DNA of 38,767 nucleotides from a bacterium (GTDB lineage: Bacteria; Patescibacteriota; Dojkabacteria; SC72), in the NCBI GenBank assembly GCA_021108295.1, contig JAIORF010000102.1:71260-110026 (forward strand). Direction: 5' to 3'. Each line of letters starts with the position of its first letter. Position 1 is the first letter of the stretch. Below are positions 7,645 to 21,496 of the stretch, piece after piece. A program made the position numbers and the translations under genes. The notes under the pieces are model-generated. The model made no database searches, was not told the origin of the DNA, and saw only the letters and a list, made by a program, of their open reading frames with translations.

Positions 7645-9234
7645 TTGAAACAAGACAAGTTTAAACCAACAGATAGGCAATATGGTTTTCCTACAAATAC
7701 TCCCAAGTCAACAAGAAGATTCTTAGAAATAACTCCAGGTTTAATAGTGTGGTTATTAATATTGTCACCAATCTTGATGGCTCTAATGGGTTGGAATACA
7801 GCATTTGTCATTTATGTTGCATATTTAGTAGCATACTGGACAGTAAGAAGTGCGAAATTTGTATATGGAATTCTGGTTGGCTTGAAACGTGTGAGACGTG
7901 AGACAGCAATTGATTGGAGGCAAAAGATTAAGAATGAGAAAGAAGAAGAGTTTAAGAAGCTTAAGTTTGTCTATATCTTCCCAGTGTATGCAGAGAACTT
8001 AGATATCTGGGAACCATCGTTTGGAGCTTGGGCAAATAGTGATGTTGGGGCAGATAAGATAGATGTAGTAGTAGCAATGGAGGAGGGGAAGCAAGAATTA
8101 CAGGAGAAGAATTTCAGAATTATTCAGGAGAAATATGGAGAGAGGTTTAATAGTATGCAGTATTATGTACATCCAGCAGGTATTCCAGGGGAGATAGCTG
8201 GAGTTAAAGGAGGGAATATCAATTGGGCAACAAGGAGCTATGTAGAAGAATTAGAGGAAAAAGGAGAAGATTTAGGAGAGTATCTATTAATTACCTGTGA
8301 TTCTGACTTAAGGCCTCACCCAAAGTATCTTTCTGCAGTAACATATAAATATTTAACAGTGGAAGAACCAAAGATGAGGTTCTATACTTCAGCGCTTCAT
8401 ACATTTAATAATAATATTTGGAGAGTTGCACCTATTATTAGATCCCAATCCGCGATGCTTACTCTTGTTATTTTGCATGATTGGGTTATAGAAAAGACTA
8501 AAAGATTTTTTTGGTCTGATGAAGAGGTGTATGTAAGAGATTCATTCTCTTCATATATTGTGAATTTACAAACGCTAAAAGATCTTCAGTTTTGGGATCC
8601 TGAGATTGCTAATGACGACACTGCTTTTTTCTGGAATGCTTTGGCTAGGACAAAAGGTAAGTTTAAGAGTCAAGAGGTGTATATCCCTACATATAATGAT
8701 GCTGTTGAGAATAAAAACCTTTGGGAGTCACACAAATCATTCTATAAGCAACAACATAGATGGGGTTGGGGAATTATCACTCTTCCAATTAGTGCTGCTG
8801 CAATGATAGAGGATAAAGAATTTCCACTTAAGAGAAAGTTTATGCTTTTCCAGAGAATGTTTGAAACTCAAATCTGGTATCTTACTATTGTTTTTGTTTT
8901 AACTTTTGGCTTGAAAATAATGGGGTGGTTAAATCCTGAATATCAATTTAGTGCAATTTCACATAATCTGCCAAAGCTACTTAGCTATATCTTTACCTTT
9001 ATTACACTAACCAATATCCCTATAGTGTTTGCAAGGAGACAAATTACGAAAGTCCCAGAAGGCTGGAAGTGGTGGAGACACCTCTTAGACTTTGCAGAAA
9101 CTGTTCTAATTACAGTAAACATGCTCACCTTTGGATTTATTCCATATTTGCAAGCTATGACAGAAATGATGTTGGGTAGGACAGACTCGAATCGCAATTT
9201 CTACATCACTGAGAAAGTTAAGATGAAAAAGTAG
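7645..9234 (+). CDS. processive membrane glycosyltransferase family 2
   Basis: This 529-residue protein has two N-terminal membrane helices (about residues 30-70), a cytoplasmic GT-A domain (about 100-390) and three or more C-terminal helices. The GT2 signatures are a CDSDLRP segment near residue 220 (the D-x-D metal/UDP site), NDDTAFFW as the probable catalytic-base region, and QQHRWGWG near 370, matching the Q-x-x-R-W motif of cellulose-synthase-like enzymes. It probably builds or exports a surface polysaccharide. Translation must begin at a TTG at 7645 or later, because a TGA lies four codons upstream in frame. No Shine-Dalgarno is visible. The stop codon TAG overlaps the first base of the tandem-heptamer promoter at 9233. 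Confidence 0.87.
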   Translation: MKQDKFKPTDRQYGFPTNTPKSTRRFLEITPGLIVWLLILSPILMALMGWNTAFVIYVAYLVAYWTVRSAKFVYGILVGLKRVRRETAIDWRQKIKNEKEEEFKKLKFVYIFPVYAENLDIWEPSFGAWANSDVGADKIDVVVAMEEGKQELQEKNFRIIQEKYGERFNSMQYYVHPAGIPGEIAGVKGGNINWATRSYVEELEEKGEDLGEYLLITCDSDLRPHPKYLSAVTYKYLTVEEPKMRFYTSALHTFNNNIWRVAPIIRSQSAMLTLVILHDWVIEKTKRFFWSDEEVYVRDSFSSYIVNLQTLKDLQFWDPEIANDDTAFFWNALARTKGKFKSQEVYIPTYNDAVENKNLWESHKSFYKQQHRWGWGIITLPISAAAMIEDKEFPLKRKFMLFQRMFETQIWYLTIVFVLTFGLKIMGWLNPEYQFSAISHNLPKLLSYIFTFITLTNIPIVFARRQITKVPEGWKWWRHLLDFAETVLITVNMLTFGFIPYLQAMTEMMLGRTDSNRNFYITEKVKMKK

Positions 9235-9266
9235 TTCATCGAAAGTTCATAACTGTTTAGTAAAAT
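9233..9266 (+). promoter_or_regulatory. tandem-heptamer promoter, copy 1
   Basis: Two identical heptamers AGTTCAT (9233-9239 and 9244-9250) are separated by CGAA, giving an 11-bp period. Ten bases later comes a -10-like TAAAAT (9261-9266), about 22 bases before transcription would reach the ATG at 9295. The hexamer expected at -35 (ATCGAA) is poor, so an activator binding the repeats could replace it, as in PhoB/OmpR-class promoters. The 21 bases starting at the TAG stop (9232-9252) recur exactly at 20643-20663. Confidence 0.5.
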
Positions 9267-9294
9267 ATAGGTACTAATCTTAGTATCTAAAGTT

Positions 9295-10428
9295 ATGAAA
9301 ATGTTAAAAATCTTTCTCCTTTCCATCTTCTTTTTCTCAATACCATCAGTTGGTTGTATATATGCTCTAGAGGAGGGTTTCTACAGTACAATATCATTTA
9401 CGATAGGGGAAGTAGCTCCACGAGAAGAGGTATCACATGAGCCTACTCATATAGAAGGTGAATATACCTCTGAAGTGCTCTCTCATACTAAGATTCTCGC
9501 TCATCTTACGATGGATAGTCACAGAAGTAGGATATTCGATAGGTTGACTATGTTGGCATTACCTCCATTCTCACAAGTAGATATTGGATATTACTGGTAT
9601 AACTATACCCCAGACGAAGTAAATGTCGAAACTATAAGGATTCCCCTAAGTAGGGAACATATTCCTAGAGGAGATATGACCCAATTACTCTACGAAAATC
9701 CTAACCAGGAGTTTAAATGGGGCATAACACACTCGGACGGTCCTTCTAAAGGAGGAAAGTATGTAGACATTGAAGGAGTTGGTCTAGTGCAGTCTGATAT
9801 AGATACAGGGATGGACACAGGTGTGATTATAGAGTCCTTTACAACAAAACCCTCAGTTGTATTAGACAAGTGGGAGATAGAAGTGTTGAATGAAAGGCTC
9901 TCTAAAGTCACTCTCTATGTAAAAAATATTACAGGTGAATATTTACAAGATATATGGATAAACTACAAAGATTCTGTATGTAAATCAATAGACCTCGAAG
10001 GGTATAGCGGGTATAAACAGGAGGTATATAAGAAGTGTGTAGTAAGTGAAGATAGTGTGAATTGTGGAACCATTAAAATTATCGATAGAAATACCAAAGC
10101 ACACTGTATAGCATATGGGTCAGATTGGGACAACTACCTTAAACCAGACTCTATATCTGTATGGAACAAAATAGAAGGAGAGTGGACTATTGGAGCTCAA
10201 TTTCAGCCTGGCAGAGAAAGTCTTTGTCTTCGAAGACTTCCATATGCATATAGGACAGAAGAATTAATCGCCGAGTACAATCCACCAGAACCCCCACCTA
10301 CACAAGAAGAATATTGGAAAGACATACTAGGATTAGAACTTTTACCCATCACAAGCTATCAAAGTGGTATGAAGAGTTTTTTAAGATTGATAAAACCATT
10401 GTTTACTGATAATCTTAATACAATATGA
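9295..10428 (+). CDS. secreted protein of unknown function, first gene of cca operon
   Basis: This 377-residue protein has a clear signal peptide (MKMLKIFLLSIFFFSIPSVG, then CIYALEEG). The mature part is mostly beta, with aromatic-rich segments (DIGYYWYNYTP, EFKWGITH) and Cys near the middle (DSVCKS, KKCVV, NCGTI, AHCIAY), consistent with disulfides outside the cell. The C-terminal part is Pro-rich (PPEPPPTQEEYW) and ends in a weakly amphipathic helix. I do not recognise a family. Its TGA stop is the only UGA stop in the window and overlaps the ATG of cca as ATGA, so the two are translationally coupled despite unrelated roles. The gene uses many A/C-ending codons, unlike the G/T-rich plus-strand genes elsewhere. 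Confidence 0.75.
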   Translation: MKMLKIFLLSIFFFSIPSVGCIYALEEGFYSTISFTIGEVAPREEVSHEPTHIEGEYTSEVLSHTKILAHLTMDSHRSRIFDRLTMLALPPFSQVDIGYYWYNYTPDEVNVETIRIPLSREHIPRGDMTQLLYENPNQEFKWGITHSDGPSKGGKYVDIEGVGLVQSDIDTGMDTGVIIESFTTKPSVVLDKWEIEVLNERLSKVTLYVKNITGEYLQDIWINYKDSVCKSIDLEGYSGYKQEVYKKCVVSEDSVNCGTIKIIDRNTKAHCIAYGSDWDNYLKPDSISVWNKIEGEWTIGAQFQPGRESLCLRRLPYAYRTEELIAEYNPPEPPPTQEEYWKDILGLELLPITSYQSGMKSFLRLIKPLFTDNLNTI

Positions 10429-11843
10429 AACTGTCGATATTAATACCAGACTATGTACAAAGTACTGCGAAAATACTCGTAGACGAGGGCTTTGATTGCT
10501 ACTTAGTAGGAGGTGCAATTAGGGACCTTGTCATAGGGAAAGTCCCCAATGACTACGATTTAGCGACGGATGCACTACCCGATGAAATGTTAAATATGTT
10601 TCCCAAATCGGTAGCGACTGGTGCGAAATTTGGAACAGTACTCTCTCTGACACAGGATAGTAAAGGAGAGGTACATGAAGTAGAAGTCACTACATTTAGG
10701 AGTGAAGCAGAATATGTGGATGGTAGATGGCCAAGCAGTGTGGAGTTTGTAGTAGAGATAGATAAAGATTTAGGTCGGAGAGATTTTACATTCAACGCTA
10801 TGGCTATCGATCTGTCTTCTGCAAACCTTGATGGTACTACAGAGGAACAACGTTTAGATATATATGATCCATTTAATGGAATTACGGACCTTAATTTGAA
10901 GATAGTGAAGGCAGTAGGTACTCCAACTGAAAGATTTAAGGAAGATGGACTACGTGCATTTAAAGCATGTAGATTAGCTAGCCAATTAGAATTCGATATA
11001 GAAGAGGAAACCCTTAAAGCTATAGCAAGGGCTCTACCTGTTGCAGAAATGGTATCCCTAGAGCGTATAAGGGATGAATTTATGAAAATGCTTTTACTCT
11101 CGTCTAAGCCTTCAATAGGGATTAATCTAATGAAAGATACTGGACTCCTAGCAATCTTCCTACCAGAGCTACTAGAAGCGGTAGGTATGGAACAAAAACT
11201 TTTTCATAAATACGATGTATATGTACACTCTCTTCGTACATGCGATATTGCTCACGACTCTGTCAAATTAGCGGCACTCTTACACGACATTGGAAAGGTA
11301 AGAACAGATATGGGTAATGGCCACTTCTATGGACATGACACAGTAGGTGCTCAAATGACAGAAGAAATACTAAGAAGATTAAAATTCCCTAAACAGGAGA
11401 TAGAGAAAGTGTGTAAGTTGGTTAGAAACCATATGTTCTTTTACCCATACGTGACCTCTGAGATGGCTAAGAACGAAAAAGAGAGAATTGTGCTAAATGA
11501 GTGGGGAGATAGTGCAGTACGAAGATTCCTACAAAGAGTAGGGGAAGAAAATATTGAGGATCTCTTTAGATTAAGAATAGCTGATGCCACATCGAACCCA
11601 GCCTCAGAATTTCAGCCAGAAGAAATAGCGCAACTACAGACACACATATCTAAGGTATTACAAGAAGATATGGCTTTAAAGATATCAGACCTAAGAATTG
11701 ATGGAAAAGATCTAGGACAGATTGGTGTTGAAAGCGGTCCTAAAATGGGTGAGATATTAAGAAAACTACTCGATATTGTTGTAGAAGACCCTCTCCAAAA
11801 CAGTAAAGAGATATTACTGGAAGAGGCTAGAAAGATGATGTAA
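10425..11843 (+). CDS. cca: CCA-adding tRNA nucleotidyltransferase with HD domain
   Basis: This 472-residue class II nucleotidyltransferase adds or repairs the 3' CCA of tRNA using CTP and ATP. The N-terminal head has YLVGGAIRDLVIGK and the metal-binding PNDYDLATDA (Asp 43 and 45), followed by the RRDFTFNAMA motif typical of the family. The tRNA-binding body and an HD phosphohydrolase-type domain follow (LLHDIGK around residue 288, then HFYGHD). The enzyme is needed here, since tRNA-Leu at 31322-31405 lacks an encoded CCA. It overlaps the upstream gene by 4 bases and leads into the beta-CASP RNase gene 31 bases downstream. Confidence 0.95.
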   Translation: MKLSILIPDYVQSTAKILVDEGFDCYLVGGAIRDLVIGKVPNDYDLATDALPDEMLNMFPKSVATGAKFGTVLSLTQDSKGEVHEVEVTTFRSEAEYVDGRWPSSVEFVVEIDKDLGRRDFTFNAMAIDLSSANLDGTTEEQRLDIYDPFNGITDLNLKIVKAVGTPTERFKEDGLRAFKACRLASQLEFDIEEETLKAIARALPVAEMVSLERIRDEFMKMLLLSSKPSIGINLMKDTGLLAIFLPELLEAVGMEQKLFHKYDVYVHSLRTCDIAHDSVKLAALLHDIGKVRTDMGNGHFYGHDTVGAQMTEEILRRLKFPKQEIEKVCKLVRNHMFFYPYVTSEMAKNEKERIVLNEWGDSAVRRFLQRVGEENIEDLFRLRIADATSNPASEFQPEEIAQLQTHISKVLQEDMALKISDLRIDGKDLGQIGVESGPKMGEILRKLLDIVVEDPLQNSKEILLEEARKMM

Positions 11844-11874
11844 GATGTACTAACTAATATTAAAATCTGCCTAA

Positions 11875-13299
11875 ATGAAAATCCAATTCTGTGGTGCGGC
11901 TCGTATGGTTACGGGGTCTTGCTACTATATAGACACAGGTTCTGCAAAGTTTCTTGTAGATTGTGGAGCTTTTCAGGGTAGTAAAGAAGCAAATTCCTTG
12001 AATAGGGCACAATTCCCTTTCAATCCTGCAACACTTGATTACATATTTCTCACACATGCACATTTTGATCATTGCGGAAGATTGCCTCGTCTTATAAAAC
12101 AAGGTTTTAAGGGGAGGATAATATCAACTCAACCCACAAGAGATCTTACAAATGTAGTACTTATGGACTCAGCTAAAATACAAAGAGAAGACTTCGAAAG
12201 GTGGGAAGCTAGAGCTACAAGGAAAAATGGTAGTGAGATAGATCCTCAAAGTGAGGACTATATTAGCCACAGACCAATGTATTCAGAAGAAGAGGTAGAA
12301 GACACTATGACAAGGTTTGAAATATATCCATATGGTAATTCTGTCAAACTAGGCAAGGATCTTGAGTTTAGGATGAGAGACGCAGGGCACATTATCGGTT
12401 CTGCGATGCTTGAGTTTTGGCTTAAGACCAAAGCAGGTCGAGACAGAAAAGTGGTGTTCTCAGGGGATCTAGGACAGCCAGGTGCAAGGATAATTAAGGA
12501 TCCAGATATGATTAGTAAGGCGGACTACGTTATTTGTGAGTCTACATATGGTAATAGATTACATAAAAGTAGGGATGAGACAGTGCTGGAGTTCCTTGCG
12601 ATAATAAAACAAGCTCAGAAAGAAGGTGGTAATATTCTAATCCCGTCATTTGCAATAGAGCGTACACAGGAAATTCTCTATGAGATAAATCTGTTTGTTG
12701 AAAATAAGCTACTTGAAGGCTTAGAGGTATTCCTTGATAGTCCAATGGCATCAAAGGCTACTGCAATATTTAAGATGTATCCGGGTTTTTACGATGAAGA
12801 TGCTAGAAGACTTCTTCAGAAAGGGGATAATCCATTTGAGTTTGATGGTTTAAAGATTGTTGAGTCTGCCGAGGAGTCTAAAAGGTTGATAGATAAACAT
12901 GGAATATTGATAATTGCTGGTAGTGGAATGTGTACAGGGGGGAGAATAGTTCACCATCTGAAAAACAATTTAGCCAAACCTAGCACACATGTCATCATTG
13001 TAGGCTATCAAGTAGAAGGAACGCTTGGTAGGAGATTAGTAGAAGGGGAGTCCTCAGTGCGTATCTTTGGTGAACAGATAGAGGTTAATGCTCAGGTTCA
13101 TACTCTTGGAGGATTTTCTGCCCATGGAGATCAAAGAGACTTAAGATATTGGTTAAGAAGTTTTGGACATACTCCTAAGAAAGTATTTATCACACACGGA
13201 GATAAAGAAATCTCAATTGGTTTTGCTAGTAATATTAAGTCAGAATTAGGATTAGACGCATGTGTCCCAGAATTATATGAAGAATTTGAATTAAAGTAG
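11875..13299 (+). CDS. metallo-beta-lactamase/beta-CASP RNase (CPSF73/YSH1-like)
   Basis: This 474-residue protein has the full MBL core: THAHFDHCGRL (His 61, His 63, Asp 65, His 66), DAGHIIGSA, and FSGDLGQPG. The beta-CASP part follows (ICESTYGNRLH, LIPSFAIERTQE, SGMCTGGRIVHHL), then GGFSAHGDQRDL and VFITHGDKE for the last metal ligands. Members of COG1236 are zinc-dependent RNA endo/exonucleases; no KH domains precede the core, unlike archaeal CPSF1. A role in mRNA or tRNA 3' processing or decay is inferred. A -10-like TAAAAT (11861-11866) lies 8 bases before the ATG, so it may also be expressed as a leaderless mRNA. The next gene begins one base after its stop. Confidence 0.93.
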   Translation: MKIQFCGAARMVTGSCYYIDTGSAKFLVDCGAFQGSKEANSLNRAQFPFNPATLDYIFLTHAHFDHCGRLPRLIKQGFKGRIISTQPTRDLTNVVLMDSAKIQREDFERWEARATRKNGSEIDPQSEDYISHRPMYSEEEVEDTMTRFEIYPYGNSVKLGKDLEFRMRDAGHIIGSAMLEFWLKTKAGRDRKVVFSGDLGQPGARIIKDPDMISKADYVICESTYGNRLHKSRDETVLEFLAIIKQAQKEGGNILIPSFAIERTQEILYEINLFVENKLLEGLEVFLDSPMASKATAIFKMYPGFYDEDARRLLQKGDNPFEFDGLKIVESAEESKRLIDKHGILIIAGSGMCTGGRIVHHLKNNLAKPSTHVIIVGYQVEGTLGRRLVEGESSVRIFGEQIEVNAQVHTLGGFSAHGDQRDLRYWLRSFGHTPKKVFITHGDKEISIGFASNIKSELGLDACVPELYEEFELK

Positions 13300-13300
13300 C

Positions 13301-14260
13301 ATGAAATATCCTGTAGAAATAGAAAAAATATATAAAGACATTGTAGATTTAAATATACAAGGTGCAACTAATGTTGCAATATCCACTCTCGAAGGTATGA
13401 AAGTGGCAGTAAGAAGTGAAGTTGTAAAAGACGATCATTTACTCGAAAGGATTATAAATATTGGTAATTACTTGGCATATGCAAGACCAAATGAGCCTTT
13501 AGCACAGAATGGTGTGCTGTATATTAAACAGTTCTTTCTTGAGAAGGATGGTATGAAGCTAGATCTTTCTAAAGAAAAGAATCTACTGGAGGACCTTTGT
13601 GAGGAGTATTTACAGATAATTGCTAATGCTAAGAGTAAGATAATTGAACACAACGCTCCAAAGCTCACAAATATTGATCATATTCTCACGCATTGCCACT
13701 CTTCAACAGCAGGTGCAATTATCAAAGCTATTGCTAAGGGAGATGATGATTTTACTGCAGTATGTACAGAAACTCGGCCAAGATATCAGGGTAGAATTAC
13801 AGCAAAGAATCTATTAGATGCTAGAATTAAAACTACATTAATTGCAGATAGTGCAGCAGAATCTTTCGTAATCGGAAGAGGTAGTAGACATGTATCTGCT
13901 GTCTTTATCGGTGCAGACGTAATTACCATGAAAGGTTTCTGTGTTAACAAAATAGGTAGTTGGGGTATAGCTATGGCTGCCAAACAAGCAGACAAACCAC
14001 TATATGTGATTACTCCGTTGTTAAAGATTGATCATGATACTGTATACAATGAGATAGAAATAGAGGTTAGAGAAGACAAAGAATTGTGGGACAGTGCTCC
14101 TAAGGGGTTAGAGATGTATAATCCTGCTTTTGAGATTGTAGATGCGGGATTGATAACAGGCTTTGTCACAGAATATGGTATCCTTAAACCAAGTGAAATA
14201 GAGGAGGTTATAAGAAGAGAGTACTCTTGGCTTTTTAAGCACAAACTTGATGACAAATAA
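13301..14260 (+). CDS. ribose-1,5-bisphosphate isomerase (archaeal eIF2B-related type)
   Basis: This 319-residue protein belongs to the eIF2B alpha/beta/delta family and has the features of archaeal R15P isomerase rather than of methylthioribose-1-phosphate isomerase. These are HCHSSTAGAI with the expected catalytic Cys 132, RPRYQGRITAKNL, ADSAAESFVIGRG, FIGADVITMKG with the expected catalytic Asp 206, and GSWGIAMAAKQ. The enzyme converts ribose 1,5-bisphosphate to ribulose 1,5-bisphosphate, the RuBisCO substrate in the archaeal AMP pathway. AMP phosphorylase, the preceding enzyme, is encoded 17 bases downstream, which strongly supports the call. RuBisCO itself is not in this window. Confidence 0.93.
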   Translation: MKYPVEIEKIYKDIVDLNIQGATNVAISTLEGMKVAVRSEVVKDDHLLERIINIGNYLAYARPNEPLAQNGVLYIKQFFLEKDGMKLDLSKEKNLLEDLCEEYLQIIANAKSKIIEHNAPKLTNIDHILTHCHSSTAGAIIKAIAKGDDDFTAVCTETRPRYQGRITAKNLLDARIKTTLIADSAAESFVIGRGSRHVSAVFIGADVITMKGFCVNKIGSWGIAMAAKQADKPLYVITPLLKIDHDTVYNEIEIEVREDKELWDSAPKGLEMYNPAFEIVDAGLITGFVTEYGILKPSEIEEVIRREYSWLFKHKLDDK

Positions 14261-14277
14261 TATTAGAAATAACAAAT

Positions 14278-15783
14278 ATGGGGCTGTATCTTAAATCAAG
14301 GGAGTTGGATTTTGAAGGAGGAAAAGACCTTTTTGTTGTACTTAATAGGGCTGACGCAGAGAGAATAGGGATTAAAGATGGAGGAACTGCACTCTTAGGG
14401 TATAGGGATGTTGAAATGTATGTGAAGGTAATCATCACAGATACGAAGGTTGAGGAGGGAGAGATAGGTTTGTATGAAGAGCTTGTGGATGAAAGGTTTG
14501 CTCCTGTAAATCAGAAAGTCTTTTTAGATATTCCTAAACCTACTAAGGCTTTAGACGCTATTAGAAAGAAAATGAAGGGAGAGAAACTTACTGAGGAGGA
14601 ACTTCTCTGCATTATGGAGGATATTGGTAGTAGGAAGTTAAGAGAAACAGAGGTTGCTTTCTTTGTAAGTACATTCTTTAATCCAGGTTTTGAAGATGAT
14701 GAGATATATTGGATGACTAAGGGTATGGCCAATTCTGGAGAGAAGTTGAGTTTTAAGGATATTAAGGATAATGGGGATCTTGTTGTAGACAAACACTCTA
14801 TTGGTGGCACTGCAGGAAAGGGTATTACTCCTATCCTTGTATCTATACTTGCTGCAAATAATTTGGTATGTCCAAATACCTCTACTCGCGCTATTACCTC
14901 TCCAGCAGGTACAAGTGATATCCTAGAAGTTGTAATGCCAGTAGCTGTTTCTAAAGATGATGTGTATAGGGTTGTAAAAGAAACTGGTGCTTGTCTAATA
15001 TGGGGAGGTTCTTTGTATCTAGCTCCTGCTGATGACGAGATTATCAACGTAGAGAGATCTCTTAGAATACAGGAGTTCCAGAAGGTCTTAGTAAGTATTG
15101 TGGCTAAGAAGGTTGCTATGGGTTCTACATGTGTATTAATTGATCTTCCATATGGTAAGAATACAAAGTTGGATAGGCCTGATGATTTAGCGTTTTTGGA
15201 GAAGGGGTTTATAAAATTATTTGCGAAATTCGGTATTAATTGCCTCATTATTAAACGACAGATCAAAGGTCCAGATGGTAATGGTGTGGGCCCTGCCTTA
15301 GAGATTAGGGAGGCATTAAGGGTGCTTGAGCAGACGGATAATAGGTCGAAGGATTTGGAGAATACAGTATTGGATATGGCAGAGATACTACTTGAGGAGT
15401 CTGGTAAGGCTAAGAAGGGAGAGGGTAGGGATTTAGCTATAGAGACACTGTCTAGTAAGAGGGCATTGAGTACATTCTGGAGAATTGCAGTTAGCCAAGG
15501 GAAGAAGGGAGTGATGCTTTCTCAAGAGATTGAGGTGGGTAAGCTTACTTATGAGCTTAAAGCTACTAAGAGTGGTACAATCATGAGGATTGATACTAGA
15601 ACTATTGTAGATATAGCTAGGTCTTTAGGAACTCCTAAGATAAAAGAAGCAGGAATATTCTTTGAAAAGAATGTGGGAGATCGTGTAGAGAAGGGGGAGG
15701 TTGTAGCGATATTATATGCACAAACAGAGGGTAGATTAGAGCAGGGTAAAGAGGCTGTAGAGGGTTTATTAGATATTAAATAG
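14278..15783 (+). CDS. deoA: AMP phosphorylase (archaeal-type, thymidine-phosphorylase family)
   Basis: This 501-residue protein has an N-terminal domain of about 85 residues before the pyrimidine-phosphorylase core; that extension and length mark AMP phosphorylase rather than bacterial thymidine phosphorylase of about 440 residues. The core has DKHSIGGTAGKGITPI (from residue 171), the phosphate/substrate-binding signature, then STRAITSPAGTSDILEVV, and a C-terminal lipoyl-like segment (ATKSGTIMRIDT and NVGDRVEKGEVVAILYA). It phosphorolyses AMP (also CMP/UMP in archaeal enzymes) to base plus ribose 1,5-bisphosphate, feeding the isomerase just upstream. Its stop overlaps that of the convergent transglutaminase gene by 8 bases. 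Confidence 0.93.
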   Translation: MGLYLKSRELDFEGGKDLFVVLNRADAERIGIKDGGTALLGYRDVEMYVKVIITDTKVEEGEIGLYEELVDERFAPVNQKVFLDIPKPTKALDAIRKKMKGEKLTEEELLCIMEDIGSRKLRETEVAFFVSTFFNPGFEDDEIYWMTKGMANSGEKLSFKDIKDNGDLVVDKHSIGGTAGKGITPILVSILAANNLVCPNTSTRAITSPAGTSDILEVVMPVAVSKDDVYRVVKETGACLIWGGSLYLAPADDEIINVERSLRIQEFQKVLVSIVAKKVAMGSTCVLIDLPYGKNTKLDRPDDLAFLEKGFIKLFAKFGINCLIIKRQIKGPDGNGVGPALEIREALRVLEQTDNRSKDLENTVLDMAEILLEESGKAKKGEGRDLAIETLSSKRALSTFWRIAVSQGKKGVMLSQEIEVGKLTYELKATKSGTIMRIDTRTIVDIARSLGTPKIKEAGIFFEKNVGDRVEKGEVVAILYAQTEGRLEQGKEAVEGLLDIK

Positions 15784-17614
15784 GTTTATTCTTATTTCTA
15801 CTTCTTATCTTTTTAATAGTCCATCTTATAGATGATAGAAAGATTACTAATACGATAAGTACTAGTAATATAGGGGCAACAACGGCTGTACTTCTTCCAA
15901 TACTGCTTGCTTTGAAGAACCTATTTAATGTATCTCCGATATTTTCTTCAGACAAATCTTCTATTGGAGAGATTTCCTCATAGGTTTGTAAACCCTCTAT
16001 ATCTGCAATATCATTTTCTGTAATAGCATATATTGATATATTAAATTCTAATTCATCAATATTGTCCAAAGAGTCTGCAGAATATACCTTTGTATTAGAT
16101 AAATCATTACCACTAAAGGTCTCCCAAAGTATTCTATCAATATTTTGTCCGATATCCATATTCTCACTCTCAAGTGTAGGATCTATAGAAAGCCAACCGT
16201 AATCAGGTAGCCATACCTGTACCCATTGGTGTCTAACTTGGGAGTCTAAAGTATGAGCTATATCTTTCAAGTTCACATACCCTAATGCTGCCCTTGCAGG
16301 TATCCCCTGTGCCCGTAGTATTGTAATCATTGTATCTGCATACTCCATACATACAGAACCTCCTCCTTCTAGTGCTTCTTTTGCTCCGATTCTTTCATTG
16401 CTAGAATCTGCCTTGGTCTGGTCATAATCTAGATTTTCGTTGATATAGGTATAGTCTGCTTTAATTAAATCAAGAAAATCCCCTATATCTTTCTTTAACG
16501 CTTCAGCCTCTTGTTGAATATATTCATCATTTACTTGCCAGTACTTTGTTGAAGTAAGATATTGTGATAAGTTGGAGTCCTTTGATATGGTTTCTGTGTA
16601 TAGAGAAAGTTCTGGATTTGGAATTATCTTCGGATCACTAAGATCATTTTGTGTTACCCAGATATATCCAATTACTGATATTGTGCTTGTGTCATTTGCA
16701 TCTACTTCAAATGTCGCTATTATATTCCCTTCCGTGTCCCTCCCAATCTTGCTCGGAGTAGGAGAGATACTCTCAATCTTGACTGTCTGCATATTCTCAT
16801 CAAAGTGTCTTGGTAGAGATATTTCAAAAATATTTTTGGACAAACTTCCGAATATGTCCGAATACTGTTCTGGTATTAGTGTGTCTGTCTGTGGAGTGTT
16901 GTATTCCAATTCAAACCTATATATCTGGGATGTCCCAAATTCTAAGTAAGGGTTTTTACTGAGTCTAGATTCTGCAGAGAAGGTGTAAGTGTCTTGGGTT
17001 TTAGTACTGTCTAGTGTGTATGTTGTAGGCCATATTTTAGTTAGTTTACCAACCTCTTTGTCCACAACCATATTTAAATTGTAATCTAGGTGGGTTTTAG
17101 TGTTTGTTTCCTTATGTAAGATACTAAATTCTGTGTCTTGAGGAAGGGAAGGAGCTTGTAGGGTGATGTGTTGGTTTACAGCTTGTACATAGTCATGTGT
17201 CCTGTATGTAAGATATATCTTGTACGGTGAATTCTTTGTTGTTTGTTTGTAATTTGGTATTAGTACATGTATTCCTTCGTTCTCTTTCTCTGTAGTAAAG
17301 TAGGTGAGACTTTTGCCGTTAGAATCCTTCACTGTGATGGATTCCGTTTTGTAGTTTCTTTCAGTAGCTATTTGGGAATCAGTATGGGTAAGGATATCGG
17401 GTATTACAAATGTCTTCTCTCCACTTGCTGGGAAGAAGTAGTTACTATCTTTCACCTCTCTTAGATATTCAATTGTGATTGTGACATAGTCGTTGTTTTT
17501 GGAGTATTGTATCTCCATATTGTGTTCAATGTGGAAGTCGTAGGAGGATGCGTGTACTAAATTGGGTGTAATGAGGAGTGTGAGGAGAAGAATTGCGTTG
17601 AGAAGTTTTTGCAT
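15776..17614 (-). CDS. exported transglutaminase-like protein, membrane anchored
   Basis: This 612-residue protein has a signal peptide (MQKLLNAILLLTLLITPNLV), a long beta-rich extracellular part (about 25-370) and a transglutaminase-like core. Cys 422 (GGGSVCMEYAD), His 462 (QVRHQWVQVW) and Asp 478 (SIDPTLE) form the expected Cys-His-Asp triad with normal spacing. One membrane helix at about 575-597 is followed by a short basic tail (KKIRSRNKNKP), so the domain faces outside. Bacterial members may act as cysteine proteases or cross-linkers of surface proteins; the substrate is unknown, though the secreted proteins at 1-3292 are candidates. A TATGAT at 17621-17626 on this strand lies 6 bases before the ATG. 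Confidence 0.88.
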   Translation of the reverse strand: MQKLLNAILLLTLLITPNLVHASSYDFHIEHNMEIQYSKNNDYVTITIEYLREVKDSNYFFPASGEKTFVIPDILTHTDSQIATERNYKTESITVKDSNGKSLTYFTTEKENEGIHVLIPNYKQTTKNSPYKIYLTYRTHDYVQAVNQHITLQAPSLPQDTEFSILHKETNTKTHLDYNLNMVVDKEVGKLTKIWPTTYTLDSTKTQDTYTFSAESRLSKNPYLEFGTSQIYRFELEYNTPQTDTLIPEQYSDIFGSLSKNIFEISLPRHFDENMQTVKIESISPTPSKIGRDTEGNIIATFEVDANDTSTISVIGYIWVTQNDLSDPKIIPNPELSLYTETISKDSNLSQYLTSTKYWQVNDEYIQQEAEALKKDIGDFLDLIKADYTYINENLDYDQTKADSSNERIGAKEALEGGGSVCMEYADTMITILRAQGIPARAALGYVNLKDIAHTLDSQVRHQWVQVWLPDYGWLSIDPTLESENMDIGQNIDRILWETFSGNDLSNTKVYSADSLDNIDELEFNISIYAITENDIADIEGLQTYEEISPIEDLSEENIGDTLNRFFKASSIGRSTAVVAPILLVLIVLVIFLSSIRWTIKKIRSRNKNKPI

Positions 17615-17673
17615 AAGTAAATCATATCATGTTTGTAAACAACATATTGGTTTTGTGATATTATAGGCACATT

Positions 17674-18771
17674 ATGATAACTAAATCGCATACATTGTCA
17701 GTTGGTATTGTTGGTTTGCCCAATGCAGGTAAATCTACGATTTTTAATGCACTTACAAAAAAGAGTGTGGCTGCAGAGAATTTCCCTTTTTGTACGATAG
17801 ATAAGAATGTTGGGGTAATACAGATACCTGATGTACGGCTGGATAGGATGAGTGAGTTTTTTAAGGCTCAGAAGGTAGTTCCTTCTGCTATGACTTTTGT
17901 GGATATAGCGGGTCTTGTTAAAGGTGCATCTCAGGGGGAGGGTTTGGGTAATCAATTCCTTTCACATATTCGTGAGGTTGATGTAATTATGTATGTTCTT
18001 AGAGCTTTCCCAAGTACAGAGATTGTACATGTCTATGATAGGGTAGATCCTGTTGAGGATTTTGAGATTGTACAGTCAGAATTGATACTCAAGGATATAG
18101 AGGTGGTAGAGAAGAGGATGGTTAGTGTAAGTAAAATGGCAAGGATAGGGAAGGAGGGTGCAGTTGAGGAAAGTGAGGTACTTAAGGAAATTTTAGAGGG
18201 GTTAAACAAGGGAGTTCCTGTGATAGATATGGAGTTTGGTGATGAAGAGTCTAAGGTTGTGTATGAGCTTTTCTTACTTACTTCTAAGCCTCGTATGTTT
18301 GTACTTAATTGTAAAGAGGGTGTTGCAGAGGAAGATTTAGAAAAGTGGGAGGATGGTCTTAAGGAGTTTGTAGGTGGTAAGAAGGAGTATATCTTGAGAG
18401 TGGATGTGAAGTTGATAGGAGAGATGGATGATGTGAAGGAGTATGAGGAGCTTTTGGGCTATCATCCTAGTACCATTAATGATGTGATGGATATTGCTTA
18501 CAAGAGATTAAATCTTCTTACCTTCTATACTGGCTCAGAGAAGGAGTGTAATGCTTGGACTATACAAAAGGGAGCTACAGTGAAAGAATCTGCTGGCGTT
18601 ATTCATACAGATTTAGAGCAGGGTTTCATCACAGCAGATGTTGTTAATGTAGATGATTTGATAGAGGAGGGTGGTTGGAATGGAGCTAAGGAGAAGGGTT
18701 TGGTAAAGAATATGGGGAAGGAGTATGTTACTAAAGATGGTGATTACGTTGTTATTTTAGCGAACAAGTAG
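17674..18771 (+). CDS. ychF: YchF, Obg-family P-loop ATPase
   Basis: This 365-residue protein is the universally conserved YchF/Ola1. The P-loop GLPNAGKST (residues 14-22) has Ala where the family usually has Val. It is followed by NFPFCTIDKNVG, the switch II region FVDIAGLVKGASQGEGLGNQFL, and a C-terminal TGS-like domain (LLTFYTGSEKECNAWTIQKG, VIHTDLEQGFITADV). YchF binds ribosomes and hydrolyses ATP in preference to GTP. It acts in translation and stress, exact job unsettled. The N-terminus is about ten residues longer than usual before GIVGLP, but no better start is evident. A perfect AT-rich 8-bp inverted repeat (18776-18794) lies just past the stop. Confidence 0.95.
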   Translation: MITKSHTLSVGIVGLPNAGKSTIFNALTKKSVAAENFPFCTIDKNVGVIQIPDVRLDRMSEFFKAQKVVPSAMTFVDIAGLVKGASQGEGLGNQFLSHIREVDVIMYVLRAFPSTEIVHVYDRVDPVEDFEIVQSELILKDIEVVEKRMVSVSKMARIGKEGAVEESEVLKEILEGLNKGVPVIDMEFGDEESKVVYELFLLTSKPRMFVLNCKEGVAEEDLEKWEDGLKEFVGGKKEYILRVDVKLIGEMDDVKEYEELLGYHPSTINDVMDIAYKRLNLLTFYTGSEKECNAWTIQKGATVKESAGVIHTDLEQGFITADVVNVDDLIEEGGWNGAKEKGLVKNMGKEYVTKDGDYVVILANK

Positions 18772-18845
18772 GGGTTAGTATATAACATATACTAGAAATC
18801 CTCATTATGAAGAAAAAACATTTTAATGCTTAGAATATCGGTAAG

Positions 18846-18874
18846 TTGCTTATGAATAAGAATATTGCTATAAA
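18846..18874 (+). promoter_or_regulatory. extended -10 promoter placed at a start codon
   Basis: TTGCTT (18846-18851) and TATAAA (18869-18874) are 17 bp apart, and TG at 18866-18867 makes an extended -10 (TGCTATAAA). Only five bases separate the -10 box from the ATG at 18880, so the transcript would begin at or within a base or two of the start codon, that is, leaderless. Confidence 0.5.
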
Positions 18875-18879
18875 TAATA

Positions 18880-20187
18880 ATGAAGGAAGACTATCAAGAA
18901 GAACTTATAGGAGTTAAAACACCACTTAATGTTGTAGAGATACAAGCACCTGGAATAGAAATGGAATCTATTCTTACAAGGATAGAGCCAATAAATGGAG
19001 TATTTAATCCTGAAGAAGAAATGGAAAAGCTTCGATTTATGATGTCTAGAATAGAAGACAGGAAAGAAGTAATAGGATTATTCAAAAGTAAATTATCTCG
19101 CCAAAGAGAAGCGTGGGCAGTATGTAGAAATACTATTGAAGAACAAATAATGTTCAAACCTGATTTGTCTAGAGAAGAGATGGTAGGGATAATTGGAATA
19201 TTTGCTTCTAATTATGGATTTCCTCCTGCTCAAATTGAAGTCGCAGAATCATTAGTAGATGAATATATTGATGTACATAGACGAGTTATAGAATTTCGTG
19301 AGAAATTTCCTAAGAATCGAGACTTATTGGAGAAGTTAAGTAGCGTAAGAATCAGCAAAGCCGAAGCAGAAGGAGTTGAGATTTCAGTAGGACCAGTAGC
19401 AATTGAAATATTTTGTCCCGAAAATGTTTTTTTAAAAATGGGAACTAATACTACGAGTTCTTGGGATATGGGATATGCTACACAGAGCATAGCTAGAAAC
19501 CCAATTCCATATTTAGTATTGAATGAAGACTCTCCTTGGCATGAAATATATTCAATGTCTTCGACACTTGTACATGAACGAGAGCATCAAAAAAACAAGA
19601 TTTTAGGGCCGAGGTTGTATAGTACAAAAGAAATTGAAACTGATGTCTTGAAGGGTATGGAAAAGGATATTCTGGGATCCTTAGTAATGAAGGCTAGTGA
19701 TAAATTGTTGAGGAGTACAAAATTGTTAGGGGCTAAAGAAACATTGGAGACAGTAGCGTTATTCAGGAGATATAAAAGGGCACGAGATTTTGATGAAAGA
19801 AGCCTTTTTGTTAAAGCATGTATGCAAAGGGCGAGGGAAGTTGCACTTAATTATGTCAAAGATGAAATTATTGCGATGAAGGCAGAAGCGGACGTGTCCC
19901 CTCATGGTGGTGAATATAATATTTTTTCAAATCAAGATGGTAGTTTCTATGATTATCTCCAGTTTTTCCGGGAAAAGTTACATAAAGACAAAGGTGATAA
20001 ACTTTGGCAAGAAGCTTCACAAAGAATACTAGTTGATGAATATAAGGAGATTATAGACAATTCAATTATGGCTTTTGATGATCTGAAAGACAGGGGGTAT
20101 TCAAGAAAAGAAGTAATTGCTTTGCTTTTTGATAAACGATTGCAGGAATGGCCAAAAACAGCTAAGAGATTATTAGAACAAAGATAA
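18880..20187 (+). CDS. unknown cytoplasmic protein with HExxH metalloprotease-like motif
   Basis: This 435-residue protein has no signal peptide or membrane helix. The N-terminal 160 residues are charged and helical. A central beta segment (about 165-215) leads into STLVHEREHQKN, an HExxH motif at 232-236 as in zincin metallopeptidases. Glu 251 and Asp 255 in an E-x3-D arrangement, about 15 residues after the second His, could supply the third zinc ligand as in gluzincins, though the spacing is shorter than usual. The C-terminal half is helical and charged. Uncharacterised CPR proteins with similar HER-H motifs are familiar to me, but I cannot name a family. Codons are A-rich compared with ychF upstream. 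The start is supported by a promoter ending 5 bases before it. Confidence 0.72.
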   Translation: MKEDYQEELIGVKTPLNVVEIQAPGIEMESILTRIEPINGVFNPEEEMEKLRFMMSRIEDRKEVIGLFKSKLSRQREAWAVCRNTIEEQIMFKPDLSREEMVGIIGIFASNYGFPPAQIEVAESLVDEYIDVHRRVIEFREKFPKNRDLLEKLSSVRISKAEAEGVEISVGPVAIEIFCPENVFLKMGTNTTSSWDMGYATQSIARNPIPYLVLNEDSPWHEIYSMSSTLVHEREHQKNKILGPRLYSTKEIETDVLKGMEKDILGSLVMKASDKLLRSTKLLGAKETLETVALFRRYKRARDFDERSLFVKACMQRAREVALNYVKDEIIAMKAEADVSPHGGEYNIFSNQDGSFYDYLQFFREKLHKDKGDKLWQEASQRILVDEYKEIIDNSIMAFDDLKDRGYSRKEVIALLFDKRLQEWPKTAKRLLEQR

Positions 20188-20226
20188 GTTTGTTCGTAAA
20201 GGGTAAAACTTACTACTACAAAACTC

Positions 20227-20255
20227 TTCCCATCTGTGTTGTTTTCTGCTAAAAT
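20227..20255 (+). promoter_or_regulatory. candidate promoter of rpsF
   Basis: TTCCCA (20227-20232) and TAAAAT (20250-20255) are 17 bp apart, with TG at 20247-20248 giving an extended -10 (TGCTAAAAT). The leader would be about 30 bases and include the AAGGAAG ribosome-binding site. An alternative TATAAT at 20268-20273 would start transcription inside that site. Confidence 0.33.
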
Positions 20256-20291
20256 CCAATCGCTAAATATAATTTAAGGAAGATATAGTTA

Positions 20292-20645
20292 ATGGCTAAG
20301 AAGAACGAGAACCAAAAGGTATATGAATTAATGATTATACTTAAACCTCTGCTACCAGATGAGGTAAGAAAAGAACTACACAAGGAGATTATTGGTCTTG
20401 TAGAATCTAAAAAGGGCAAGATCTTGGATATAGATGTATGGGGTAAAAGATATCTTACTTACAAAATATTAGGACACAATGAAGGATATTACATCATTTA
20501 CAACTATGAAATTGAACCAAAGCATATTGGAGAGATAAATAGACAATTGAAATTGAAACAAGAAATACTTAGAAGTCTAATAACAGAGGTTACACATCCT
20601 GAGGATATAGGAACAGGAATTAAGAAAAAAGAGATAAGTATCTAG
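20292..20645 (+). CDS. rpsF: 30S ribosomal protein bS6
   Basis: This 117-residue protein matches bS6 over its length: YELMIILKPLLPDEVRKEL, then DIDVWGKRYLTYKI and NEGYYIIYNYEIEP. bS6 binds 16S rRNA on the small-subunit platform as a heterodimer with bS18, encoded two genes downstream. A clear ribosome-binding site AAGGAAG precedes the start, unlike most genes in the window. The stop codon TAG is shared with the first bases of the repeated promoter element that precedes ssb. Confidence 0.95.
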   Translation: MAKKNENQKVYELMIILKPLLPDEVRKELHKEIIGLVESKKGKILDIDVWGKRYLTYKILGHNEGYYIIYNYEIEPKHIGEINRQLKLKQEILRSLITEVTHPEDIGTGIKKKEISI

Positions 20646-20677
20646 TTCATCGAAAGTTCATAATTGTATTGTATGAT
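20644..20677 (+). promoter_or_regulatory. tandem-heptamer promoter, copy 2
   Basis: AGTTCAT occurs at 20644-20650 and 20655-20661 around a CGAA spacer, then exactly 10 bp later TATGAT (20672-20677). Position, spacing and most flanking bases match the copy at 9233-9266. The predicted start near 20684 leaves a 25-base AT-rich leader with no Shine-Dalgarno before ssb at 20709, giving ssb-rpsR a promoter separate from rpsF. Confidence 0.5.
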
Positions 20678-20708
20678 TAGATATAGTTAAATTAAATAAA
20701 TAATATAT

Positions 20709-21176
20709 ATGGCAGCAAGATCTTTAAATAAAGTTCAGCTAATAGGGAATCTCACAAGAGATCCAGAATTACGATATACAAACTCTGGTGCAGCTGTAGC
20801 AACCTTTGGGATGGCTACCAATAAGTCTTGGAAAGATGATAAAGGAGAGTTAAAGGAATTAGCAGAGTTCCACAATATAGTAGCATGGAGTAAGATGGCA
20901 GAAATATGTCAGCAACTTCTAGCTAAAGGTATGAAGGTATACATCGAAGGATCCCTCAATACAAGGAATTGGGAAGCTGACGACGGAAGTAAGAGGTATA
21001 AGACAGAGGTAAGAGTAAACGATATGATTCTGTTGGATAATAAAGGGAAACAGGGAGTTGGTTTCACTGAACAGCCTACAGATGATAAGAAGGAAGAAGT
21101 AAAGAAAGACTCCGAGCCTGTTAAAGATACCCCCTCTAAGGATGAAGATCCACTAGAAGAGGATTTACCATTTTAA
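20709..21176 (+). CDS. ssb: single-stranded DNA-binding protein
   Basis: This 155-residue SSB has an N-terminal OB fold (LNKVQLIGNLTRDPELRYT, FHNIVAWSKMAEICQQLL, GMKVYIEGSLNTRNWE) of about 110 residues. A charged, disordered linker follows, and then the acidic tip DPLEEDLPF that recruits DNA-processing partners. It coats single-stranded DNA in replication and repair. It sits between rpsF and rpsR as in most bacteria, but here a separate promoter with tandem AGTTCAT repeats lies between rpsF and ssb. Confidence 0.96.
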   Translation: MAARSLNKVQLIGNLTRDPELRYTNSGAAVATFGMATNKSWKDDKGELKELAEFHNIVAWSKMAEICQQLLAKGMKVYIEGSLNTRNWEADDGSKRYKTEVRVNDMILLDNKGKQGVGFTEQPTDDKKEEVKKDSEPVKDTPSKDEDPLEEDLPF

Positions 21177-21196: not shown

Positions 21197-21496
21197 ATGA
21201 GTGAAGAAGTAAAAAACACAACAACAGCGACTACTACAACGACACAAAGTAGTCCTCCAAAGAAGAGAAGGAGAAAGAGAAAGATTATTCAAAATCTGAA
21301 GTGTCCTCTTTGTGAGTCTGGTACTAAGTACCTATCTTACAAAGATGTATACCAATTAAAAAAGTTTACATCTGTAAGAGGTAAGATCATATCTACAGAG
21401 AAATCTGGAGTATGTCACAAACATCAGAGACAGCTTACAAAAGCTATCAAAAGAGCTAGAGTCATGGCATTACTTCCATATGTAGCAAAAGAGTAG
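21197..21496 (+). CDS. rpsR: 30S ribosomal protein bS18
   Basis: This 99-residue protein has a low-complexity Thr-rich then Lys/Arg-rich N-terminal extension (about 30 residues) before the bS18 core: YKDVYQLKKFTSVRGKI and KRARVMALLPY. It keeps possible zinc ligands, CPLC at 36-39 and CHKH at 73-76, so it is a zinc-ribbon (C+) form. A ribosome-binding site AGGAAG lies just before the ATG. A strong terminator follows. The L9 gene (rplI), which follows rpsR in many bacteria, is not here. Confidence 0.94.
   Translation: MSEEVKNTTTATTTTTQSSPPKKRRRKRKIIQNLKCPLCESGTKYLSYKDVYQLKKFTSVRGKIISTEKSGVCHKHQRQLTKAIKRARVMALLPYVAKE

Follow-up and report, generated by a model that had tools for sequence, protein, structure and literature searches.

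The analysed stretch of DNA (38,767 nt, here called the window; positions 71260-110026 of contig C1 in the source genome G000, a 1.21-Mb assembly of 142 contigs) carries two predicted promoters sharing a paired-repeat operator, one upstream of an open reading frame (ORF) for a probably secreted protein followed by cca, and the other upstream of ssb-rpsR. On the comparative sequence evidence given below, we consider it quite likely that both sites are members of a DNA-uptake (competence) regulon in a family of Dojkabacteria, controlled by a dimeric activator of the OmpR/PhoB type. The scan of the window located AGTTCATCGAAAGTTCAT on the plus strand at 9233-9250 and 20644-20661, each copy starting within the TAG stop codon of the preceding gene. 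The 21 bases that begin at each TAG (9232-9252 and 20643-20663) are identical, the 22nd being different, and in both copies 10 bp lie between the second heptamer and a hexamer, which is TAAAAT at 9261-9266 and TATGAT at 20672-20677. An earlier note on this DNA had described the paired repeats, the identical stretch and the 10-bp spacing to the -10, and all three are confirmed in the sequence. It had also reported finding no third copy; this is true of the exact AGTTCAT pair within the window, but the genome holds five more sites of the form GTTCATC-N4-GTTCAT.

Seven exact sites and the genes behind them

In G000, AGTTCAT-N4-AGTTCAT occurs twice. The leading base is variable among the seven sites (four A and one each of G, T and C), and the unit is therefore GTTCATC-N4-GTTCAT, hereafter the com-box, which has seven exact occurrences, two in the window and five beyond it. 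Com-box 1 (GTTCATC-GAAA-GTTCAT, plus strand, 9234-9250) begins with the G of the TAG (9232-9234) of an upstream 529-aa ORF, a position kept in G001 and G002, two genomes of the same genus, and its -10 hexamer on the same strand predicts a transcription start near 9273. Com-box 2, with the same sequence on the plus strand at 20645-20661, begins with the G of the TAG of an rpsF-like ORF (20292-20645) and predicts a start near 20684; the separate promoter that the earlier note had assigned to ssb, independent of rpsF, is hence also predicted here. The names rpsF, hisS, mutS, dus, def, PBP, RelE and XRE were assigned by eye from translations.

A TAnnnT hexamer lies exactly 10 bp downstream of all seven exact sites and of none of the 24 sites with one or two mismatches that were read (24 of 25, C54:2064 being left out); one of the latter, C2:117395, shows AACAAT in the TAnnnT position and is hence counted under the relaxed pattern used below. 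The reversed pattern has no exact match in this genome, either in the AGTTCAT form without the -10 or with the -10. Loose matches are at or near chance level both in the genome (32 at up to two mismatches vs. 26 for the reversed pattern) and in the window (7 at up to three mismatches vs. 8.6 expected), and for this reason the case rests on the exact form with its fixed -10. The gap between the perfect sites and the remainder is the pattern expected from a real regulon. The window and a further 99 kb of G000 contain 115 ATG-initiated ORFs with a length of 100 aa or more; scored by a weight matrix whose training set included the seven sites, the seven targets reached 27.0-28.7 and the next ORF 4.7. 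The identity over 21 bases between the window sites might also be what is left of a recent duplication of a promoter piece, with no regulatory meaning; the probability of this is, in our opinion, close to nil, since the near-identity fades past the motif, the spacers differ among the seven sites, and the box, although its sequence drifts, is retained upstream of the same genes in different genera.

The seven sites precede comEA-comEC (C1:9905; ComEC PF03772, ComEA with HHH and SLBB), dprA (C1:44945; PF02481), radC (C1:48083; PF04002), the 377-aa secreted ORF plus cca (C1:80493, window 9234), ssb-rpsR (C1:91904, window 20645), comFC (C2:126525; named from its zinc-ribbon/phosphoribosyltransferase layout, both Pfam scores being below the cut-off) and a gene encoding a RAYT-like transposase (C2:163243; Y1_Tnp). 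No recognised type IV pilus gene follows any of them. This set resembles the classic late-competence genes, and one and the same operator stands before comEA/comEC, comF, dprA and ssb within a single genome, as in a late-competence regulon. The shared regulation proposed in the earlier note survives as far as the operator is concerned, but the genes in question are those of DNA uptake and transformation rather than of tRNA maturation, AMP salvage and ssb. The competence regulons of Streptococcus (ComX), Bacillus (ComK) and Haemophilus/Vibrio (Sxy-CRP) have comEA/comEC, comF, dprA, ssb and radC as their core. The core targets are the same in Dojkabacteria, whereas the operator is different and the set is enlarged by RAYT-like genes, genes for NYN-domain proteins and the secreted protein-cca pair. 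Competence regulons and OmpR-type boxes are, in themselves, kinds already known.

Recurrence of the box in related genomes

Across 114 genomes, the strict pattern with TAnnnT was matched only in three genomes of the source genus (7, 3 and 6 sites; controls, 0). The three exact sites of G001 and the six of G002 precede the same target genes as in G000, with the addition of an NYN-like gene in G002, and the Pfam NYN domain was confirmed on another box-driven gene of the same genome. The family can be placed in Dojkabacteria, within the candidate phyla radiation (CPR), because of two named relatives of DprA, namely the metagenome-assembled genome SMBSF33 (81%) and Candidatus Dojkabacteria bacterium WOFB23 (56%), the latter being identical by eye to the family member G014 upstream of dprA. 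ComEC is present in 27 of the 31 genomes of the family and a DprA match in 19 of them, absence of DprA meaning no match at E 0.001 to one query protein; the box upstream of dprA drifts in sequence when read by eye. A relaxed pattern, DTTMATC-N4-DTTMAT-N10-NANNNT, gave 130 matches in the 31 genomes vs. 11 when reversed, to which the 19 genomes matched by DprA contribute 115 vs. 7 and the other 12 contribute 15 vs. 4; when TANNNT was required, the figures for the family were 97 vs. 6. The earlier note had held that absence of the motif upstream of the same genes in relatives would speak against its proposal; the motif does recur there, in G001, in G002 and in other genomes of the family.

The fetched loci contained 104 distinct sites, 79 of which precede nine recurrent target classes; these loci were picked partly for holding the motif, and several of the reference proteins are box targets themselves. 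By number of genomes, the classes are dprA (15), comEA (11), secreted protein-cca (11, including G000), RAYT-like (10), radC (7), comFC (7), ssb (6, including G000), NYN (4) and a second secreted protein (4). Such a list also bears on the possibility of an SOS box. Indeed, alphaproteobacterial LexA has GTTC-N7-GTTC as its operator, a pattern that GTTCATCGAAAGTTC fits in genus g1, and ssb is frequently found among SOS genes. We consider a LexA operator very improbable, nevertheless: recA, lexA and uvr are found neither among the seven G000 targets nor among the nine classes, ssb being the sole overlap; the sites of sister genera are mostly TTAATC/TTTAAT, without GTTC; the constant 10-bp gap to the -10 fits an activator; and the LexA DNA-binding domain PF01726 has no match in G000, in a search whose control was positive in 10 of 14 genomes (nine above the cut-off) and which divergent proteins can escape. 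The SOS reading was rejected on this missing match and on the target list.

A held-out test was carried out on comEA. Forty-one sites from seven genomes were used to build a matrix, and this scored 100 bases of sequence upstream of comEA in 15 genomes outside that set, with first-order Markov resampling as background and the first Met taken as the start; comEA had been located in 15 of 18 loci (not in G020, G003 and G025), and the G006 locus had been fetched for the motif. In 14 of the 15 promoters the distance from the start of the best site's -10 to the first ATG is 11-14 nt (p 0.0005-0.024). The comEA of G008 fails at the first Met (p 0.62), and a later Met has GATCATC-taga-TTTCAT-N10-TATCAT 12 nt upstream, with a score of 19.0. 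The comEA box is present also in g3, g6, g7 and g12, genera without a DprA match. The idea that the box tracks the presence of DprA, or a regulator linked to DprA, was consequently dropped, since comEA promoters in these genera carry it as well.

The distance between box and gene is also constrained. An ATG-initiated ORF of at least 90 aa lies within 60 nt of 58 of the 59 distinct strict sites, and, counted from the first -10 base, the ATG comes at 11-15 nt in 41 cases and at 33-42 nt in 17; among the ORFs inspected, the second class consists mainly of ssb and secreted protein-cca. The core targets appear to be mostly leaderless or nearly so, ssb and secreted protein-cca having short leaders, and a geometry as strict as the leaderless one would allow start sites to be predicted nearly to the base.

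In 54 other genomes of the class, the relaxed pattern with TANNNT showed a weaker excess (32 matches vs. 8 reversed), to which family f9 contributed with G081 (4), G059 (3), G056 (3) and G070 (3; control, 2). Fifteen of these 32 sites were read: seven have no nearby ATG-initiated ORF, four have an ATG 12-14 nt after the start of the -10, and no recognisable com gene follows any of the 15. A related box may be spread beyond the family. Two sites in other families, L253:1501 (G079, minus strand) and L268:1501 (G033), also look like the box and have their -10 start 12 nt ahead of an ATG; the genes there are those of a large secreted-looking protein and another ORF.

The putative activator

The earlier note had likened the window sites to those of the PhoB/OmpR class, and what was found is in agreement with it: the repeats are direct and recur on an 11-bp period (the sole period examined), ten bp separate them from the -10, and the -35 position of com-box 1, the one site at which it was read by eye, is atcgaa (9238-9243), with no consensus -35. 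The pho box of PhoB is likewise made of direct repeats with an 11-bp period that overlap the -35 region at a distance of ten bp from the -10, whereas its sequence and target genes differ from those considered here. CiaR is reported to recognise TTTAAG-N5-TTTAAG ten bases from the -10 and to control 15 promoters in S. pneumoniae, including those of small-RNA genes, CiaRH being tied to genetic competence (PMC3091779). The Dojkabacteria box shares with it two hexamers 5 bp apart, which gives an 11-bp period, and the ten-base distance from the -10, and some boxes of the family read TTTAAT-N5-TTTAAT; however, the box stands directly on com genes and its consensus is TTMATC, not TTTAAG. CiaRH reportedly inhibits competence, according to the title of one study. 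In Helicobacter pylori, HP1043/HsrA is reported to bind TTTAAG direct repeats whose centres are 11 bp apart and which directly precede the -10, with no -35 (PMC5253667); it is described as an orphan, phosphorylation-independent OmpR/PhoB-type protein with a degenerate receiver (PMC8345958), and as an essential regulator serving many crucial processes (PMC5253667, PMC8345958). The Dojkabacteria box, in contrast, is concentrated on DNA uptake genes. Because its geometry matches that of CiaR sites and resembles that of HP1043 sites, we infer that the binder is an OmpR/PhoB-type activator.

Such an activator would bind, as a dimer, two direct repeats of 6-7 bp placed one helical turn apart, and the bound repeats, 10 bp before a normal -10, would stand in for the -35 and recruit the housekeeping RNA polymerase; activation, rather than repression, would be its mode of action. 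comEA-comEC, comFC, dprA, ssb, radC and the secreted protein-cca operon would be switched on jointly, together with accessory genes for Y1/RAYT-like transposases and NYN-domain proteins, and most core targets would be expressed as leaderless mRNAs, ssb and secreted protein-cca having short leaders. It might be argued that the repeat is, instead, the promoter element of an alternative sigma factor similar to ComX/SigX, which would suit a target set like that of the late com genes and the presence of one short element per promoter at a fixed distance. This appears improbable to us, as two copies one turn apart, the second of them 10 bp from an ordinary -10, are more readily explained by a dimeric activator than by sigma region 4, and the -10 is TAnnnT at all seven G000 sites.

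As to the identity of the OmpR/PhoB-type activator, the best candidate, which we put forward tentatively and at a probability well short of even, is an orphan response regulator encoded between hisS and mutS (G000 C1:171738-172397, minus strand). Matches at this locus were found in 24 of the 31 genomes, and in 22 of them the gene and both its neighbours were read by eye; the interval varies in some genomes (hisS-regulator-dus or PBP-regulator-mutS). The protein is fast-evolving and degenerate, the G000 copy having Trans_reg_C at 6.6e-7 and a sub-threshold receiver, and the solved chains closest to the G002 copy are BasR, CpxR, BaeR and PhoB. No com-box was found at the G000 gene, where the best score is -10.4. 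Several of these regulator genes show by eye a direct repeat of their own, approximately GTAAY-N6-TGTAAY, about 10 bp before a -10 and near the ATG (L275, L285, L279, L218, L220, L287 and L277), and the repeat of the G025 gene resembles a com-box (score 7.4, ATG 12 nt after the -10 start). From these upstream sequences, it is possible that the regulator is autoregulated or part of a cascade.

The same competence regulon might depend on another binder, namely the group A regulator, the regulator of the def locus or a DNA-binding protein of a different fold, and the probability that we assign to this alternative as a whole is just under even. Group A comprises orphan response regulators encoded beside dnaN/dnaA, which form one clade with members from 24 of the 31 genomes in a tree used for group identities alone, its long-branch joins being flagged; the G000 member (C2:69315-69974, L165:9319-9987) is the only PF00486 match of that genome in the whole-genome search and has by eye an N at the expected phosphate-accepting D. 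It might have a housekeeping role comparable to that of HP1043. In G009, which is 99% complete and has seven relaxed sites, no group A member was found, a fact that weakens this candidate without rejecting it. The divergent regulator of the def locus has matches in 10 genomes, all belonging to g8-g11, and a kinase-like gene lies beside it in G012, G022 and G025, but it was not found in g1 and g5, both of which bear boxes. None of the three regulator types was found in G028 and G029, which is in favour of a binder of another kind. Among binders of other folds, the search covered LexA.

Some of the data weigh against a competence regulon under an OmpR/PhoB-type activator. Thirteen of the 104 sites have no nearby ATG-initiated ORF (one of them, in G021, being an ssb clipped by the end of locus L139) and 12 precede other ORFs, a RelE-like/XRE-like pair among them, so that some are due to chance. 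In three of the four genomes from g3 and g6, comEA has a weak box (scores of 3.3-5.8, p 0.011-0.023), the fourth, G007, scoring 10.3 (p 0.004). Both core regulator groups occur also in genera with few boxes. Lastly, G028 and G029 have no PF00486 match and show only a receiver-length match to the regulator alignment, and therefore the binder could be something else. G028 is 96% complete and has boxes at dprA and comEA; in G029, with no relaxed match, the dprA box was seen by eye only. The PF00486 search had, however, missed the G000 hisS-mutS regulator, which scores 29.8 bits (cut-off, 26.2) when tested directly, and for this reason the absence in G028 and G029 is weak evidence.

We can speculate further that this family runs natural transformation as one concerted programme, directed by a core orphan response regulator that evolves fast and acts independently of phosphorylation, and that the programme absorbed Y1/RAYT-like proteins, NYN proteins and the CCA-adding enzyme for the handling of incoming DNA; in this full form the idea is rather doubtful. 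RAYT-like genes are kept under a mostly leaderless box in six genera. Conservation of the com genes extends over the CPR phyla, and natural transformation occurs in Saccharibacteria (PMC10633639). In the open-licence literature, among the matches listed and in the available parts of the texts, PMC10633639 and PMC11665869 included, we found no competence operator, consensus, leaderless layout or RAYT-like/NYN/cca passengers for Patescibacteria, and nothing on the regulation of com genes in the radiation. A defined operator with its list of targets makes this regulation testable, and it predicts genes that act together with ComEC and DprA; RAYT-like proteins, NYN proteins and the two secreted proteins are candidate transformation partners in these reduced cells. 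The data suggest that reduced, uncultured cells would run the genes for uptake and processing of foreign DNA as a coordinated set, and an inducible promoter element might be derived from the box, if the activator is confirmed.

Window genes and other box-bearing loci

The 377-aa ORF behind com-box 1 (9295-10428, plus strand) has an N-terminal signal recognised by eye, matches no Pfam family at E 0.001, and has no usable fold in the AlphaFold2 single-sequence model (mean pLDDT 38.7). Its stop overlaps by 4 nt the start of cca (10425-11843, plus strand), which encodes a CCA-adding enzyme with PolyA_pol, PolyA_pol_RNAbd and HD, and the two genes are probably co-transcribed. The genes that follow on the same strand (11875-15783), coding for a beta-CASP RNase-like protein, an IF-2B family protein and a nucleoside phosphorylase-like protein, might be further members of the operon. 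The link between box 1 and AMP-salvage genes suggested in the earlier note was not borne out: by eye, the gene after cca is beta-CASP-like in G012, as in the window, and a different one in G022. Behind com-box 2, ssb (20709-21176, plus strand; PF00436, 2.3e-35) encodes the single-strand DNA-binding protein and is followed by rpsR (21197-21496, plus strand; PF01084).

The Y1/RAYT-like genes under the box come from 10 genomes, two of which have no DprA match (C2:163243 in G000, and L123, L124, L138, L116, L148, L152, L175, L193 and L199), with the ATG mostly 12-14 nt after the -10 start; this suggests that the RAYT-like protein may be a domesticated single-strand-DNA enzyme used in competence.

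The G000 assembly is large (1.21 Mb vs. 0.6-0.7 Mb for two assemblies of the same genus), and the GC content of some small contigs (0.52 for C20, 0.46 for C5 and C8) exceeds that of C1 and C2 (0.36-0.38); the bin might contain some foreign sequence, despite a stated contamination of 0.28.

Small coiled-coil-like proteins that resemble each other in layout are encoded behind strong boxes at L289:1616 (G008) and L118:1501 (G017), which belong to two genera lacking a DprA match. Finally, by eye, a box lies before a RelE-like toxin/XRE-like antitoxin pair at L155 (G012, minus strand), and another one stands 60 nt ahead of an XRE-like gene at L177:1052 (G030).

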